Shown: positions 167-13,233, counted from the first letter of the stretch. The stretch is DNA of 64,000 nt from Alphaproteobacteria bacterium (GCA_028871055.1 JAGWON010000015.1:1-64000), one strand, 5' to 3'. Program-made: numbers and translations. Notes: generated by a model from the sequence alone, not told the origin.

Positions 167-628
167 TCATCCGGGGAATGCGGGCTTATAGCTGCCGGCC
201 GGCGTGCGGAAGGCGATCGCCAGGCGATTCCAGCCGTTGATCGCAACCACCGCCATCGTGAGGTCGATGATCTCCTTCTCGCCGAAATACTTGCGCGCCT
301 CCTCGTAGATCTCGTCCGGCACATGGCCTTGGTTGACGAAAGTCACCGCTTCGCACCAGGCGAGGGCCGCGCGCTCGCGGTCGGTGTAATAGGGCGCCTC
401 GCACCAGGCCGAGAGACCGTAGAGACGCTGCTCGGTCTCGCCTGCCGCGCGTGCATCCTTGGTGTGCATGTCGAGGCAATAGGCGCAGCCGTTGATCTGC
501 GACGCGCGCGTCTTGACCAACTCGAGCAAGGAATGATCGAGACCGCTCGCGTTCACATAGCCTTGCAAGCCCTGCATCGCCTTGAGGGCCTCGGGCGCCG
601 CTTGCCGGTAGTTGATCCGTTGCGTCAT
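167..628 (-). CDS. AhpD-like / carboxymuconolactone decarboxylase family protein
   Basis: This 153-residue protein is a single CMD/AhpD domain. The redox signature is intact: C48-x2-C51-x3-H55 within NGCAYCLDMH, preceded by ELVKTRASQ, the alkylhydroperoxidase-like core. Members are all-helical peroxidase or disulfide-reductase proteins that act in oxidative stress defence; the physiological reductant is unknown here. The length matches single-domain family members of about 150 residues. An AGGAG-like sequence precedes the ATG. It lies 109 bases downstream of the broken nitrilase on the same strand, so it could once have shared its transcript. Confidence 0.9.
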   Translation of the reverse strand: MTQRINYRQAAPEALKAMQGLQGYVNASGLDHSLLELVKTRASQINGCAYCLDMHTKDARAAGETEQRLYGLSAWCEAPYYTDRERAALAWCEAVTFVNQGHVPDEIYEEARKYFGEKEIIDLTMAVVAINGWNRLAIAFRTPAGSYKPAFPG

Positions 629-1704: not shown

Positions 1705-2045
1705 CGGACCCGCCGCATCGCCGATCGGTCAGGCTGCCGCGGCGGCGGCAGTGAGAGCCGGCGCGCGTTGCTTGCACTCACGGCCGGGGCGGTATTGCCG
1801 GGCTGACAGTCCATGGCGGAAACTCTACGCGGCTGCGGACGAATCGAGAATGATCCAGGCGCACCTCGTCGGACAATCATCTCCATAAGCTGGAATGCCT
1901 CCAGATCGCGCCACGCGATCGCCGGTAACGCGCCGCGCCCGCCCCAGCCTGGGAAGATGTACGGCCGGACGCGCCACCGGACGCGACCATCGGAACGGCG
2001 CGGAAACCTGCGATCCCCTGCGGCTTGACGTCGCCTATAAAGATA
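1705..2045. other. intergenic stretch between divergent nitrilase remnant and membrane-protein gene
   Basis: About 340 bases hold no credible coding region on either strand; the short open frames lack recognisable protein features. It must contain the promoters of both divergent genes. Only the palindrome at its right end stands out. Confidence 0.5.
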
Positions 2046-2065
2046 TATATGATTTATATCATATA
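2046..2065. promoter_or_regulatory. candidate operator: AT-rich 8-bp inverted repeat
   Basis: TATATGAT and ATCATATA are separated by TTAT, a perfect inverted repeat with 8-base arms in a very AT-rich island inside GC-rich DNA. It lies 53 bases before the start of the seven-gene cluster whose last gene encodes an NsrR-like Rrf2 regulator. NsrR-family operators are AT-rich dyads, so autoregulation through this site is a reasonable inference, but no footprint-level consensus was matched. Confidence 0.45.
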
Positions 2066-2117: not shown

Positions 2118-3485
2118 ATGTTCGGTTCGGCCGTATCGCGCTGGACGATGCTCCATTTCGGAGCGGCGATAAGCTGCTTCCTCCTCGCTCAACTTGCGAT
2201 GATCTCCGGTCTGGCCTTTCCGGCCGCGCCTCTTCTCGCGCCCCTGACGCTCGCCACCGTCCATCTGTTGACCATCGGGTGGCTGACGATTCTCATGTTG
2301 GGCGCGCTGCATCAGTTCGTGCCGGTCATCACCGCCCAGGGCGCCGTCGCAAGGACATCGGCCCTCGTCTCCGTGCTCGCCATTCTCGCCGGCCTCGGCG
2401 GGATGGAGGCGGGGTTCGTCGCATTGGACGGAGTCCTGCCGGCGCCGACCATTCTTGCCCTTCCCGCCGGCGGAGCGTTGGTTCTGGGCGGCGTGGTGAC
2501 CGCCGCCGCTTCGCTCGGACGGACCTTGTGGCAGACACGACCGCTGCCGTTCCCCGCGCGGTTCGTAGCCGTCGGCCTCGTGTTTTTGTTTGCCGCGCTC
2601 GGGCTGGGGATGCTCTTGGGGCTCGCGTTCTCTTCACCGGATCTCGTCCGATGGTCCGGCGCATTCACGGACGGCCTGCGGCTTCATCTTCTTGCCGGCC
2701 TCATCGGCTGGTTCACGCTCACCGCGATCGGCGTCAGCTATCGCCTACTCAGCATGTTCACGCTCGCGCCCGAAGAGCGGGGCAGACTTGGTACGGCCGT
2801 TCTTGTCCTGAGCGCAGGCGGCCTTGCGGCGACTTGGCTCCTCGGTGTCGGCGAGGCAATCGGCGCTCCCGTAACAGGCGGAGTCGTTACGATTGCCGCC
2901 GCCGTCACCGGATTGGGCATCGTTCTCTACCTTCTCGATATGCTGCGGCTCTATCGCGCGCGGCGGCGGCAGAAGCTCGAGCTCAACACGCGCATGACGC
3001 TTCCTGCTCTGGCGGCTCTCGCGATCTCGATTATGGGTGTCGGCTACGCTTACGCCAGCGATTTTGCCGAGCCCGTTGTCGGCGCGGTGGGCTACCTTTT
3101 CCTGTTCGGCTGGCTGTCCGGACTCGGACTGAGTCAGCTCTATAAGATCGTGCCATTCCTGACGTGGCTTGAGCGCTATGGCAGCCTGCTCGGCAAGCAG
3201 CCGGTGCCGCGTGTCCAGGACCTCGTCGACGAACGCCGCGACCGGCCGTGGTTCGCCCTCTACTTCGCCGCCGTTGCCGCCGGCGCGGTTTTCGCCGCGC
3301 TCGGCTGGACCATGCTCTTTCGCGTAGCCGTCCTCGGACATCTCGTCGCGACGCTCATGATCGTTCGCGCGCTTTGGCTCGTGCGCCAGGGGGCTCCCCG
3401 CGCCGCGGCGCCGCTTGTTCGTCCGCCAAGCCTGAAAGCCGGTACGCAGTCGCTATTTGCAGCCAATCCGACCACCACGGAGTAA
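2118..3485 (+). CDS. polytopic haem-copper/NnrS-like membrane protein
   Basis: This 455-residue protein is almost entirely hydrophobic, with about twelve predicted membrane helices. Conserved-looking histidines sit inside helices: H49 (ATVHLLTIGW), H65 (GALHQFVPV) and H190 (LRLHLLAGLIGW). This spacing recalls haem-binding subunits of the haem-copper oxidase superfamily and the NnrS haem-copper proteins linked to nitric-oxide metabolism. It lacks a clear full set of oxidase ligands, so an oxidase role is not claimed. It heads a compact operon with DUF2249, DUF59 and NsrR-like genes; the next gene starts 7 bases after its stop. That context suggests a role in NO or nitrosative stress. The exact family is uncertain. 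Confidence 0.7.
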   Translation: MFGSAVSRWTMLHFGAAISCFLLAQLAMISGLAFPAAPLLAPLTLATVHLLTIGWLTILMLGALHQFVPVITAQGAVARTSALVSVLAILAGLGGMEAGFVALDGVLPAPTILALPAGGALVLGGVVTAAASLGRTLWQTRPLPFPARFVAVGLVFLFAALGLGMLLGLAFSSPDLVRWSGAFTDGLRLHLLAGLIGWFTLTAIGVSYRLLSMFTLAPEERGRLGTAVLVLSAGGLAATWLLGVGEAIGAPVTGGVVTIAAAVTGLGIVLYLLDMLRLYRARRRQKLELNTRMTLPALAALAISIMGVGYAYASDFAEPVVGAVGYLFLFGWLSGLGLSQLYKIVPFLTWLERYGSLLGKQPVPRVQDLVDERRDRPWFALYFAAVAAGAVFAALGWTMLFRVAVLGHLVATLMIVRALWLVRQGAPRAAAPLVRPPSLKAGTQSLFAANPTTTE

Positions 3486-3492
3486 TGACGCC

Positions 3493-3765
3493 ATGACCAC
3501 GCCATCATTGTCCACGCTCGACGTCAGAGAAATCCTCAAGTCTGGCGGCGAGCCTTTCTCTGAGATCATGCAGGCCGTCGCCGCACTGACTCCCGGCCAG
3601 GGTCTCCGATTGCTGGCGACCTTCAAACCCGTTCCGCTGTTCGGCGTGTTGGCGCAACGCGGGTTCTGCCACGCGGAGCGCGAGATCGGTGGCGGCGACT
3701 GGGAAGTGATCTTCACGCCGTCAGCGACGGATACGGCACCGGCCAGCGCGGGAACCCAGCGATGA
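3493..3765 (+). CDS. DUF2249 domain protein (first of three)
   Basis: Starting at the ATG 7 bases after the upstream stop, this gives 90 residues. The core STLDVREI...PGQGLRLLATFKPVPLFGVLAQRGF matches the DUF2249 fold, which is TusA/SirA-like. DUF2249 proteins recur near nitrite/NO reductases and hemerythrins, but no biochemical function is established for this type. An earlier in-frame ATG at 3457 would overlap the upstream gene and is less likely. Its stop overlaps the next start by 4 bases, indicating translational coupling. Confidence 0.8.
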   Translation: MTTPSLSTLDVREILKSGGEPFSEIMQAVAALTPGQGLRLLATFKPVPLFGVLAQRGFCHAEREIGGGDWEVIFTPSATDTAPASAGTQR

Positions 3766-4019
3766 GCGGCCTCACGGAAGCGCAATCGAAAAGGAGTCTC
3801 GACTTGCGCGGCCTCGACCCGCCCGAGCCGATGCGGCGGGCGCTCGAAGCGGTCGAAGCGTTGAGTCCGGGCGATGCGCTGGAGGTCGTCACCGATCGGG
3901 AGCCGCTACTGCTTCACCGCGAGTTGGGGCGGCGCGGACACGATTTCGTCAGCGAGCCCCGGCCGGATGGTTGCCGGACGACTATTCGCCATGGTAGCGG
4001 CCACGGTGACACGCGATGA
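3762..4019 (+). CDS. DUF2249 domain protein (second of three)
   Basis: This 85-residue protein carries the DUF2249 signature SLDLRGLDPPEPMRRALEA followed by LSPGDALEVVTDREPLLL and GHDF. It is clearly related to its two neighbours of the same family yet very different from them in sequence, so the copies are old paralogues rather than a recent duplication. It overlaps the genes on both sides by 4 bases. The C-terminus is rich in His, Gly and Arg. Function is unknown; context suggests a small sulfur-, metal- or haem-related carrier role. Confidence 0.8.
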   Translation: MSGLTEAQSKRSLDLRGLDPPEPMRRALEAVEALSPGDALEVVTDREPLLLHRELGRRGHDFVSEPRPDGCRTTIRHGSGHGDTR

Positions 4020-4324
4020 GCGACGAGATCGTCCGGACGCTGGCCGAGGCGCTCAAATCCGTGATCGATCCGGAGCTCGGCTACAACATCGTCGACATCG
4101 GTCTCGTCTATGAGGTCGACGTCAAAGACGGCTACGCCCGCATCGTGCTGACCACGACGACGCCCGGCTGCCCCGCGACCGACTATATCCGGCAAGCCGT
4201 CGAGACTTGCGCCGCCGCGGTTCCCGGCATCGGCGCCGTCGACGTCACCATGACCTGGCAGCCGCCGTGGACGCCCGATCGCATGAGCGAGGAAGCCAAG
4301 GCCCATTTCGGGGTTGCGGCCTGA
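4016..4324 (+). CDS. DUF59/MIP18-family Fe-S assembly factor, SufT/PaaD-like
   Basis: This 102-residue protein is a single DUF59 domain. It has the conserved VIDPELGYNIVDIGLVY segment and TTTTPGCPATDYI, where C52 is the conserved family cysteine. Relatives (SufT, the N-terminal domain of some ApbC/Mrp proteins, PaaD) help mature Fe-S proteins. In this cluster it may repair or load clusters damaged by NO, perhaps including that of the NsrR-like regulator downstream; this is inference. It overlaps the preceding gene by 4 bases and is followed 6 bases later by the next. Confidence 0.88.
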   Translation: MSDEIVRTLAEALKSVIDPELGYNIVDIGLVYEVDVKDGYARIVLTTTTPGCPATDYIRQAVETCAAAVPGIGAVDVTMTWQPPWTPDRMSEEAKAHFGVAA

Positions 4325-4330
4325 TCCGCC

Positions 4331-4576
4331 ATGGCGGCTATGACCGAGACCTCGTCAGCGTGTGAAACCAAGGCCGATGCGCCGGCGGACGACCTTCGCT
4401 CGCTCAATCGGCTGCTGATCCGCGCCCTCAAGGCGCTTGGCGATGCAGGCCAGACCGATCTCGCCTGCCGCATTGCCGCCGAGGCCTGGTCATCGGTCCG
4501 CACTGCGCGCCCGCAAGAGGCCGAGAAGCTGAACGGCGCGCTTCACTATCTCACCCGTTCCGTCCACCGAAAGTAA
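4331..4576 (+). CDS. small unknown protein in DUF2249 cluster
   Basis: This 81-residue soluble protein has no family I can name. It is predicted to be mostly helical (SLNRLLIRALKALGDAG...LACRIAAEAWSSV). It sits 6 bases after the DUF59 gene and 12 bases before the third DUF2249 gene, so it is almost certainly co-transcribed with them. A second ATG three codons downstream is possible. Its place in a tight operon is the best argument that it is a real gene. Confidence 0.65.
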   Translation: MAAMTETSSACETKADAPADDLRSLNRLLIRALKALGDAGQTDLACRIAAEAWSSVRTARPQEAEKLNGALHYLTRSVHRK

Positions 4577-4588
4577 AAGGAGACTGCT

Positions 4589-4828
4589 ATGTCGGACCTT
4601 CAACAACTCGACGTGCGTGCGCTGCCGCCGCCGCAGCGGCACGCGCTGATTTTCGCCACTTGCGGCACGCTGCCGGTCGGCAACGCCGTGATCCTGGTGA
4701 ACGACCATGATCCGAAGCCGCTCTATTACCAGTTCGAGGCGGAACGTCCGGGGCAGTTCGGTTGGGAGTATGTCGAGTCAGGACCCGAAGTGTGGCGCGT
4801 TCGCATCACGCGGAAGAAAACCGTATAA
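4589..4828 (+). CDS. DUF2249 domain protein (third of three)
   Basis: This 79-residue protein is the most typical DUF2249 member of the cluster: QLDVRALPPPQRH, then LPVGNAVILVNDHDPKPLYYQF and a C-terminal FGWEYVESGPEVWRVRI. Hemerythrin-associated DUF2249 proteins look like this. A strong AAAGGAG ribosome site lies 9 bases before the ATG, stronger than those of the upstream genes, so it may be made at a higher level. The regulator gene follows 49 bases later. Confidence 0.85.
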   Translation: MSDLQQLDVRALPPPQRHALIFATCGTLPVGNAVILVNDHDPKPLYYQFEAERPGQFGWEYVESGPEVWRVRITRKKTV

Positions 4829-4877
4829 GAGGCCGAAGACACCGGTCGATCGCTCGCCCAGGTACAAAGGAGTCCGA

Positions 4878-5342
4878 ATGCGTCTCACGCTCCACACGGA
4901 TTATGCGCTTCGCGTGCTCATGTATGCGGGCGTGAAAGGCGGTGCGCTTTCCACGATCGGCGAAATCGTCGAGCATTTCCAGATCTCCAAGGGCCACGTC
5001 ATGAAAGTGGTCCATCAGCTCGGCCAGAAGGGATATCTGGAGACCATCCGCGGCAAGAACGGCGGCATACGCCTCGCGCGGCCGCTGGCACAAATCAACG
5101 TCGGCAGCGTCGTCCGCGATATGGAGGAGGAGCTGGGCGTGCTCGGCTGTCTCCAGGGCAGCGAGGGCTACTGCCGCATCGAGGCGTGCTGCGTGCTTCT
5201 GAGCGCGATGCGCGATGCGACCAGCGCGTTCCTAGCCGTGCTTGACCGTTACACCCTCGGCGATCTGGTGAAGCCGCGGCGACCGCTCGCCCGCCTGCTG
5301 GAAATCGACGAGTTCCCGCGCGCGGGCGAGAGGGTCGGATAA
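4878..5342 (+). CDS. nsrR: NsrR-like Rrf2-family transcriptional regulator
   Basis: This 154-residue Rrf2-family winged-helix protein begins MRLTLHTDYALRVLMY and has GHVMKVVHQLGQKGYLETIRGKNGGIRL, very close to NsrR. Cluster-ligand cysteines are present at C91, C99 and C104/C105, matching the three-cysteine loop of NsrR with its NO-sensitive Fe-S cluster. NsrR represses NO-detoxification genes until its cluster is nitrosylated. The ATG at 4878 follows AAAGGAG with good spacing; longer frames upstream have no family similarity. As last gene of the operon it probably represses its own cluster. IscR and RirA are less likely because of the GKNGGIRL segment. Confidence 0.85.
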   Translation: MRLTLHTDYALRVLMYAGVKGGALSTIGEIVEHFQISKGHVMKVVHQLGQKGYLETIRGKNGGIRLARPLAQINVGSVVRDMEEELGVLGCLQGSEGYCRIEACCVLLSAMRDATSAFLAVLDRYTLGDLVKPRRPLARLLEIDEFPRAGERVG

Positions 5343-10946: not shown

Positions 10947-12206
10947 ATGAATCAACCGAAGCCACCCACGATCGGCCGCCGCACGGTCCTGAAGGCCGCC
11001 GCCGCCGCCGGCGTTGCGCAGGTCGCCGCGCCTTTCGTCATCTCCGCCCGCGCGGCCGAGACCCTCAAGATCGGCATGATCAATCCGTTCACCGGCGTCT
11101 ATGCCGCGGTGTCGAACAACGAGCTGATCGGCGCCAAGTTCGCGGTCGAGCAAATGAACGCCAAGGGCGGCATCCTCGGCCGCAAGGTCGAGCTGCTCAC
11201 CGAGGATTCGGCGAACGACGTCGGCACCGGCGTGCAGAAGGCGCGCAAGCTGATCGACCGCGACAAGGTCACCTTCATCACCGCCGACGTCAATTCCGCC
11301 ATCGCCCAGGCCGTCGCCCAGGTGACGAACGAGAAGAAGGTGCTACACATCGTGCCCGGCGGCCACACCGATCCGATCACCGGTACGGACTGCCACTGGA
11401 ACGTCTTCCGCGTCTGCAACACGACGGCGATGGAGGCCAATTCGGTCGCCCCCGTGCTGTTCAAGAAGTACGGCAAGAAGTGGTATTTCATCACGCCCGA
11501 CTACGCCTTCGGTCACACGCTCGAGGCGGCGGCGAAGAAGGATCTCGCCAAGATGGGGGGCACCGTCGTTGGCAATGCGCTGACGCCGCTCGGCACCACC
11601 GACTTCTCGGCCTATCTCATCCAGGCGCGCGCCGCGAAGCCGGACGTGCTCCTGGTGCTGCCGCAAGGCGGCGACATGATCAACTGCATGAAGCAGATCG
11701 CACAGTTCGGCATCAACAAGACGATCCACGTCGCCGGCCTGCAGCAGGAGGAGGAATCGCTCATCGCCATGCCGCCCGCGTCGCGCGTCGGCACCTGGAT
11801 GTTCGAATGGTACTGGAAGCAGCCGGGCGTGCCGCATGTCGCCGAGTTCGTCGCCGACATCCGCAAGCGCAGCGGCGGCCACGTGCCGACGGCGCGCACC
11901 TGGTTCGGCTACACCGCGCTGTGGTCGTTCAAGCTCGTCACCGACAAGGCGAAGACGCTCGACGCGGTGAAGCTCGCCAAGGCGCTGGGCGGCTTGGAGC
12001 TGCCACCCCAGATCAAGCTGCAGCCCAACAAGGTCTATTACGCCGCGGGCGATCACCAGCTGCGGACCTCGTCCTTCGTCGGCGAGGCCGTGGCGAACCC
12101 CAAGGGCGATCCCGAGGACCTCTTCCACATTGACACTGTGATCCCCGGCGACAAGACCTCGCCGCCCGATACCGAAACCGGCTGCAAGCTCACCTGGCCG
12201 GCCTGA
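10947..12206 (+). CDS. LivK-type substrate-binding protein of an ABC importer
   Basis: This 419-residue protein is a periplasmic type I binding protein (Peripla_BP_6). It starts with a twin-arginine signal, GRRTVLKAAAAAG, ending near ISARAA, and continues LKIGMINPFTGVYA. It would capture a ligand and deliver it to the downstream LivHM permease. The family takes branched-chain amino acids, but also amides, urea and aromatic acids, so the ligand cannot be read from sequence. The ATG at 10947 follows AGGGAGT with good spacing. A palindromic repeat separates it from the permease genes. Confidence 0.9.
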   Translation: MNQPKPPTIGRRTVLKAAAAAGVAQVAAPFVISARAAETLKIGMINPFTGVYAAVSNNELIGAKFAVEQMNAKGGILGRKVELLTEDSANDVGTGVQKARKLIDRDKVTFITADVNSAIAQAVAQVTNEKKVLHIVPGGHTDPITGTDCHWNVFRVCNTTAMEANSVAPVLFKKYGKKWYFITPDYAFGHTLEAAAKKDLAKMGGTVVGNALTPLGTTDFSAYLIQARAAKPDVLLVLPQGGDMINCMKQIAQFGINKTIHVAGLQQEEESLIAMPPASRVGTWMFEWYWKQPGVPHVAEFVADIRKRSGGHVPTARTWFGYTALWSFKLVTDKAKTLDAVKLAKALGGLELPPQIKLQPNKVYYAAGDHQLRTSSFVGEAVANPKGDPEDLFHIDTVIPGDKTSPPDTETGCKLTWPA

Positions 12207-12264
12207 TCACGGTCGATGCACGCCTGCTCACCTGGCGTTCGGTCAGACAGGGCATGCGTCGCAT

Positions 12265-12311
12265 CACCCCCACCCTAACCCTCCCCCTCGAGGGGGAGGG
12301 AAGGGAGGGGC
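12265..12311. repeat. CTCGAG-centred palindromic repeat, copy 2
   Basis: Nearly identical to copy 1 and in the same orientation. It lies between the binding-protein gene and livH inside one operon, where a stable hairpin could protect the upstream mRNA or reduce read-through. Confidence 0.85.
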
Positions 12312-12363
12312 GTGGACGAGCTGTTTCGTCGTCGCAGGATGTGTGTCGATTTAACCGGTTTCA

Positions 12364-13233
12364 ATGACCCAGCTTATTCTCTTTAATGTCACCAACGGCT
12401 TGATCATCGGCGCGTTCTACGTGCTGATGGCGATCGGGCTTTCGCTCATCCTCAATCTCTCCAACGTCATCAACTTCGCGCATGGCGGCTTCCTCGTCGT
12501 CGGCGGCTATCTCGCCTACACGCTCGAGCCCTATCTCGGGTTCTGGGGCGCGCTGCTGGCGTCGCCGTTCCTGACCGCCATCCTGGGATTGGCCATCGAG
12601 CGCGTGTTGATCCGCCCCCTCTATGGCCGCGATCCGCTCTACAGCCTGCTTTTGACCTTCGGCCTCGCTTTCATGTTCGAAGATGGCACGCGCTTCATCT
12701 GGGGCGCGCAGGGCAAGCCCTTCACCGTTCCCGATTTCATGGCTCAATCCCTGAGCACTGAGTTCTTCTTCCTCACCGGCTATCGCCTATTCATGGTGGC
12801 GATGGTGGCAGTGACGGTGACGCTGCTGTTCCTGTTGCTGCGCTTTACCCGAGCCGGCATCCGCATCCGCGCCGGCACGCTCGATCTCGACACCGTCTCG
12901 GCCTTGGGCGTCAACGTGCGGGGATTGCGCTCGTTGAATTTCGGCGTCGGCATCTTCCTCGCAGGATTGTCCGGCGTGCTCGCCGGTGGCCAACTCGGCC
13001 TTGAGCCGACCATGGGCGCCGGCCTGCTGATGCCGAGCTTCATCGCCATCATCGTCGGCGGCGTCGGTTCGTTGATCGGCACGCTGGTTGGCGGCCTCTT
13101 GATCGGCGTCGCCTCGGGCCTCACTGCCGTCTTGCTGCCGTCGGCGAGCGAGGCGGTGATCTACGTGTTGATGGCGGTGGTGCTGCTGATCCGCCCGCGC
13201 GGCCTGTTCGGCGAGGAGGGTATGCTCACATGA
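12364..13233 (+). CDS. livH: LivH-type ABC permease
   Basis: This 289-residue integral membrane protein has the LivH features: MAIGLSLILNLSNVINFAHGGFLVVGGYLAY near the N-terminus and GVGSLIGTLVGGLLIG near the end. With LivM it forms the inner-membrane channel of a branched-chain-amino-acid-type importer. The length is normal, and its stop overlaps the livM start by 4 bases. Confidence 0.93.
   Translation: MTQLILFNVTNGLIIGAFYVLMAIGLSLILNLSNVINFAHGGFLVVGGYLAYTLEPYLGFWGALLASPFLTAILGLAIERVLIRPLYGRDPLYSLLLTFGLAFMFEDGTRFIWGAQGKPFTVPDFMAQSLSTEFFFLTGYRLFMVAMVAVTVTLLFLLLRFTRAGIRIRAGTLDLDTVSALGVNVRGLRSLNFGVGIFLAGLSGVLAGGQLGLEPTMGAGLLMPSFIAIIVGGVGSLIGTLVGGLLIGVASGLTAVLLPSASEAVIYVLMAVVLLIRPRGLFGEEGMLT

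Follow-up and report, generated by a model that had tools for sequence, protein, structure and literature searches.

What is the function of a compact bacterial gene cluster that places three proteins of the DUF2249 family and a DUF59 protein behind an oxidase-like membrane protein, and that ends with a regulator of the NsrR type? Such a cluster lies at positions 2118-5342 of a 64,000-nucleotide stretch of DNA (hereafter, the window) from an Alphaproteobacteria bacterium (GCA_028871055.1, JAGWON010000015.1:1-64000). Judged by sequence comparison, it is a variant of the Drp cluster of Thermus, in which DrpB has been split and an NsrR-type regulator added, because the nar plasmid of Thermus thermophilus carries the same parts. 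We see about an even chance that this variant functions as a nitric oxide (NO)-inducible operon that protects or repairs Fe-S and haem centres; a role in the repair of such centres appears plausible. The features of the cluster and of the region upstream of it, with the names used below, are:

2025..2053, plus strand: sigma-70-type promoter, TTGACG-17-TATGAT, matching 10 of 12 consensus positions
2040..2062, no strand assigned: NsrR-type operator, AAGATATATATGATTTATATCAT, overlapping the -10 box; consensus score 21.5 of 24
2118..3485, plus strand: M, membrane protein of 455 amino acids, 12 helices, haem-copper oxidase/NO reductase fold; homologue of Thermus hyp383
3493..3765, plus strand: D1, DUF2249; matches the first DUF2249 domain of DrpB
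3762..4019, plus strand: D2, DUF2249/TusA-like, lacking the TusA cysteine; matches the second DUF2249 domain of DrpB
4016..4324, plus strand: S, DUF59 (FeS_assembly_P); carries the TTPGCP cysteine
4331..4576, plus strand: U, 81 amino acids, no family, three predicted helices
4589..4828, plus strand: D3, DUF2249; orthologue-like match to Thermus DrpA
4878..5342, plus strand: R, Rrf2-family regulator of the NsrR type; ligands D8, C91, C99 and C105

The seven open reading frames all lie on the plus strand and are tightly packed. The gaps across the six genes that precede R are 7, -4, -4, 6 and 12 bases, followed by 49 bases before R; the frames and spacing listed in an earlier annotation of this DNA (the sequence-only reading) were all confirmed. 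Its assignment of three DUF2249 proteins, a DUF59 factor and an Rrf2 regulator is likewise borne out by Pfam, with 63.5, 58.4 and 109.3 bits for the DUF2249 proteins (cut-off 29.5), 71.5 bits for S (PF01883) and 109.2 bits for R. Across the genome, which measures 3.07 Mb and is 99% complete, all DUF2249 domains (COG4309) that were found lie in this cluster, and two extra copies of DUF59 are found outside it.

The sequence-only reading had overlooked the counterpart in Thermus, which we compared on plasmid pTTJL1801. D3 is 63% identical to DrpA over 71 amino acids, and DrpB has a DUF1858 domain at its N-terminus and two DUF2249 domains, the counterparts of D1 and D2 (45-47%). Downstream of the drp genes, the Thermus cluster encodes hyp383, a 383-amino-acid homologue of M (29% over 340 amino acids, E = 6e-15), and a DUF59 protein with 44% identity to S, such that DrpA, both DUF2249 domains of DrpB, the M homologue and DUF59 all have counterparts in the window. 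The two clusters differ in that DrpB is represented here by two genes, with no DUF1858 in D1 or D2, that U and the NsrR-type regulator are added, that there is no adjoining nar operon, and that the protoglobin and a 144-amino-acid protein of the Thermus cluster are missing. The DrpB architecture, including DUF1858, occurs in a relative from the window's own family (L011/L119), as a fusion whose gene immediately precedes those of a distant M homologue and S. The 144-amino-acid protein, encoded between DrpB and the protoglobin in Thermus (L133, 15010-15444), is similar to a section of the M profile (E = 6e-9) and possibly represents one oxidase unit of four helices. When drpAB is deleted in Thermus, nar and dnr are expressed regardless of nitrate. 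In this double mutant, nitrate reductase protein is produced but has about one-tenth of the activity, a result from which its authors deduce a function in maturation (PMC6282519).

Regulation is the best-supported part of our interpretation, to the extent that it can be predicted from DNA and protein motifs. The upstream region contains two promoter-like sites, compared with a mean of 0.3 in shuffled versions, and the operator score was reached by none of 300 shuffles. The operator is the only site with at most three mismatches in the entire genome (0.02 expected in the window), so that no second site pointing to a wider NsrR regulon was detected at this threshold. Residues D8, C91, C99 and C105 of R align with D8, C93, C99 and C105 of ScNsrR, that is, all four ligands of the [4Fe-4S] cluster are conserved. 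R falls below the NCBIfam equivalog cut-offs for both NsrR (128 of 182 bits) and RirA (126 of 193 bits); the NsrR and RirA scores are nearly equal, and it was on the basis of the operator that R was assigned to the NsrR type and that RirA and IscR were rejected as identities. Together, the operator, its overlap with the promoter and the conserved cluster ligands uphold the NsrR-type control proposed previously. Related NsrR-type operators precede M at loci L012-L016, L018, L019 and L084, and D3 at L085, whereas FNR/NnrR-type sites are found instead at L114-L116 and at the rhizobial-type loci L055 and L057. The operator type, the Rrf2 regulator and the presence of COG4309 as a predicted target are all features of described NsrR regulons (PMC1274295), from which the present case differs in being alphaproteobacterial, in having a single operator detected genome-wide and in the lack of an hmp or norB target among those found.

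The arrangement of the cluster is not due to chance, since it recurs in relatives. Among 38 loci with close homologues of M (collected through M, hence not a random sample, and including a few closely related ones), 34 encode M-D1-D2-S in this order on one strand, and 36 encode M-D1-S; D3 is found near M in 26, U in 15 and R in 11. Of 397 sampled genomes of the phylum, 40 contain an M homologue, which is close in 14. As to whether M occurs widely in the absence of these neighbors, a question raised by the sequence-only reading, the answer is divided: close homologues retain them (34 of 38), but they are missing around the majority of the 21 distant ones.

The suggested link to NO and nitrite metabolism held up in the relatives, where at least one N-oxide gene (norB, nirK, NnrS, nar, hemN or globin) is located within 9 kb at 29 of the 38 close loci; within the same distance of the module in the window, there is none. 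A quinol NO reductase is encoded directly downstream of the module at two loci (L016 and L017), and nar genes adjoin it at a third (L027). On annotated plasmids from Sinorhizobium and Shinella, and on a Roseateles-labelled one, a D3-M-D1D2-S run lies between hemN and NnrS/nirK. In the denitrification islands of the first two genera, the same four components follow one another in a single run. Compared with the window, D3 leads this run, D1 and D2 are joined in a fusion, neither U nor R is present, sites of the FNR/NnrR type stand in for the NsrR-type operator, and the adjacent genes include nor, nirK and NnrS. Since relatives have this module next to norB, nirK, NnrS or nar, the lack of an NO reductase, from which the sequence-only reading had concluded that this may be a distinct system, does not make it one.

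Searches of the window's own genome, which covered NO reductase, NirK, NirS, globin and Hcp but not nitrate reductase, recovered none of these. Its single COX1-family gene scores as an oxidase (E = 1e-165), compared with about 1e-50 for the NO reductases of relatives. With no detectable member of these families, it is therefore unlikely that the module is a dedicated kit for the assembly of an NO or nitrite reductase in this organism. These observations bear on the rival explanation that survives best, although we still consider it unlikely, namely, that the module matures or assembles a respiratory N-oxide enzyme by inserting or protecting its Fe-S, haem or copper centres. Such a role would agree with the position of the module between nor/hemN and nirK in Sinorhizobium and Shinella, beside the quinol NO reductase, and beside nar both in Thermus and at L027, as well as with the low nitrate reductase activity of the Thermus mutant. 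It fits poorly with a module that is intact and separately regulated in a genome where NO reductase, NirK and NirS are not detectable (nitrate reductase again being outside the search).

The small proteins offer several hints. In TusA sulfurtransferases, the catalytic cysteine lies within a CPxP motif; D2 has LDPPEP in its place, despite a match to PF01206 at 34.5 bits. D3 contains invariant histidines in its RH and DHDP motifs, and comparison of its profile with PDB sequences yielded nothing below E = 0.39. S falls short of the NCBIfam equivalog cut-offs for SUF_assoc (97.7 of 143.4 bits) and SufT (78.8 of 202.6 bits). U matches no Pfam family, nor any PDB entry with E better than 0.9. DUF2249 has been encountered in relevant contexts elsewhere: COG4309 was predicted as a member of the NO regulon in 2005 (PMC1274295), all four DUF2249 genes of Haloferax mediterranei are upregulated under denitrification, and a haloarchaeal Fe-S carrier NTPase contains this domain (PMC11218638). 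On the Haloarcula hispanica plasmid pHH406 (L136, 11200-13051), a DUF2249 gene directly precedes ric, which encodes a di-iron protein of Fe-S repair. The proposal that the DUF2249 set forms a relay of small carriers finds no support in any of these results.

A second rival, which strikes us as quite improbable, holds that the module transduces signals, with the DUF2249 proteins sensing nitrate, nitrite or NO and M acting as a membrane sensor to adjust transcription, as proposed for DrpA and DrpB. The nitrate-independent expression of nar and dnr in the drpAB mutant (PMC6282519) and the close match between D3 and DrpA speak for it. However, the operon already has a sensor regulator of its own with one operator, a pure sensor offers no place for DUF59 and the reductase-like fold of M, and the Thermus mutant is also short of enzyme activity.

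M itself is best understood through its fold. It has no Pfam match even at E up to 10 and no NCBIfam match, but its AlphaFold model (12 helices, mean pLDDT 87.8) has NorB and the cbb3 oxidase as its closest solved structures (Foldseek, 3o0r_B, E = 2.8e-5; VIA-align to NorB 4xyd_A, Z = 34.7 over 391 residues at 3.5 A), at a sequence identity of 9-14% to NorB and haem-copper oxidases. Among 59 near and far homologues, one of which is truncated before the first of these positions, the only conserved histidines are H49 in helix 2 and H190 in helix 6; the remaining four of the six active-site histidines of haem-copper oxidases and NO reductases have no conserved counterpart in this set. With two conserved histidines only, the usual catalytic site is absent from M, which shares the fold of these enzymes but has not kept their six-histidine catalytic set. 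The basic loop after helix 8 suggests that the N-terminus is inside; if so, H49 and H190 would be placed by the model close to the outer face, the side on which the haems of oxidases are bound. M also has conserved loops, predicted to be cytoplasmic, at about residues 274-290 and 343-372.

Two more specific identities of M were rejected. As NorB, it is not recognized by sequence profile (hhalign probability 0.1%, a test limited by small alignments), and only the fold links the two. As NnrS, it has no match to PF05940 and reaches an hhalign probability of 5% with a small NnrS profile, the same limit applying. Accordingly, of the earlier description of M as "12-helix haem-copper/NnrS-like", the helix count and the haem-copper relationship stand by virtue of the fold, and the likeness to NnrS does not. 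NnrS is, like M, a 12-helix membrane protein of NO-responsive operons and a frequent neighbor of the module; the two are nevertheless distinct genes, with a separate true NnrS encoded in the same genome on contig C3 and NnrS standing beside M in relatives. By description rather than sequence, M resembles the haem-copper oxidase (HCO)-homology proteins (HCOH), two-histidine oxidase homologues with 12 helices, the oxidase fold and DUF2249 neighbors, as reportedly described by Pei et al. in 2014; it fits their reported definition in its 12 helices and two conserved histidines. In distant relatives, the neighbors of the M homologue are hemerythrin and DUF2249 genes or a gene for a DUF2249-hemerythrin fusion. 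At two loci, hemerythrin, DUF2249 and a distant M homologue follow in a row (L109, 7722-9712; L110, 7608-9615), possibly as a stripped-down module. A third rival, in which M itself removes NO at a non-standard haem site, either as a reductase or as a sink, and is matured by the small proteins, is marginally less probable again than the signaling role: NorB is the best structural match of M and the genome yielded no other NO-consuming enzyme, but only two of the six histidines have conserved counterparts and a true NO reductase coexists with the module in many relatives.

We therefore return to the protection or repair of metal centres under NO. In this scheme, R would repress the operon from the single operator over the -10 box, and damage by NO to its [4Fe-4S] cluster would release the entire operon, including R itself, which is encoded at its end. 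M would be a membrane pseudo-NO-reductase, a scaffold of the NO reductase/oxidase type with two conserved histidines near the outer face, and probably holds one haem that might bind NO or pass on electrons or haem. Since D1-D3 lack the TusA sulfur-transfer cysteine, they more probably serve to dock, to sense or to transfer a metal centre than to move sulfur. S, by its family, could supply a function in Fe-S maturation, and the set as a whole would act on existing metalloenzymes, with no fixed link to any one NO or nitrite reductase. Five lines of evidence point this way: the operator that is unique in the genome and overlaps the promoter, together with the conserved ligands of R; core synteny including DUF59 at 36 of 38 close loci, with N-oxide genes near 29; the joint presence of DrpA, DrpB, an M homologue and DUF59 in the Thermus nar cluster, with the loss of activity in the drpAB mutant; the occurrence of DUF2249 fused to or beside hemerythrin, beside ric and in the haloarchaeal Fe-S carrier NTPase; and the absence of detectable NO reductase, NirK, NirS, globin and Hcp from this genome, which speaks against a dedicated assembly kit.

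Several points weigh against this interpretation. Nitrate sensing is the main model for DrpA and DrpB advanced by Chahlafi et al. (PMC6282519), and the module may have a Drp-like role in nitrate respiration here, nitrate reductase genes not having been searched for in this genome. On plasmid pAt1 of Agrobacterium fabrum (L135, 6001-8234), two DUF2249 genes of a denitrification island lie between norD and NnrS with no M or DUF59 gene listed, and a cluster in Eleftheria has DUF2249 genes without M or S; the parts of the module are therefore separable.

Among the flanking genes, a nitrilase-like gene upstream of the operon, on the minus strand, appears to be split over two reading frames (625-1704 and 738-1595), with the start of the protein in one and the rest in the other, owing to either a frameshift or an error in sequencing; L018, too, has a nitrilase-like gene near the module (11762-12739). 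Carboxymuconolactone decarboxylase/AhpD-like genes (PF02627) are found near the module in the window (167-628, minus strand), at L017 (10731-11081) and at L026 (10529-10876).

The components and their connection to NO are already known in part, and DUF2249 has been tied to NO and denitrification since 2005 without an assigned function. The open-access literature searched yielded no account of the four-part module, none of its being the same as the Thermus cluster, and nothing on DUF2249 with NnrS, HCOH with NO, or a metal-sulfur cluster with NnrS. It is possible, at somewhat less than even likelihood, that a pseudo-NO-reductase, DrpB domains, DrpA and DUF59 form a previously undescribed cross-phylum module for the repair or maturation of metal centres under NO. 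If so, the Thermus "nitrate sensors" DrpA and DrpB would be recast as parts of a membrane-anchored machine for Fe-S and haem maintenance, one that is kept in the present organism without any detected NO or nitrite reductase. The association offers an alternative reading of the published DrpA/DrpB mutant, and because DUF2249 accompanies one particular DUF59 factor and one particular protein of the oxidase fold in Thermus as well as in alphaproteobacteria, hypothetical genes that had seemed scattered can now be tested as a unit. Compared with relatives that have both, this genome, with the module and no detected NO or nitrite reductase, offers a natural means of telling NO protection apart from enzyme maturation.

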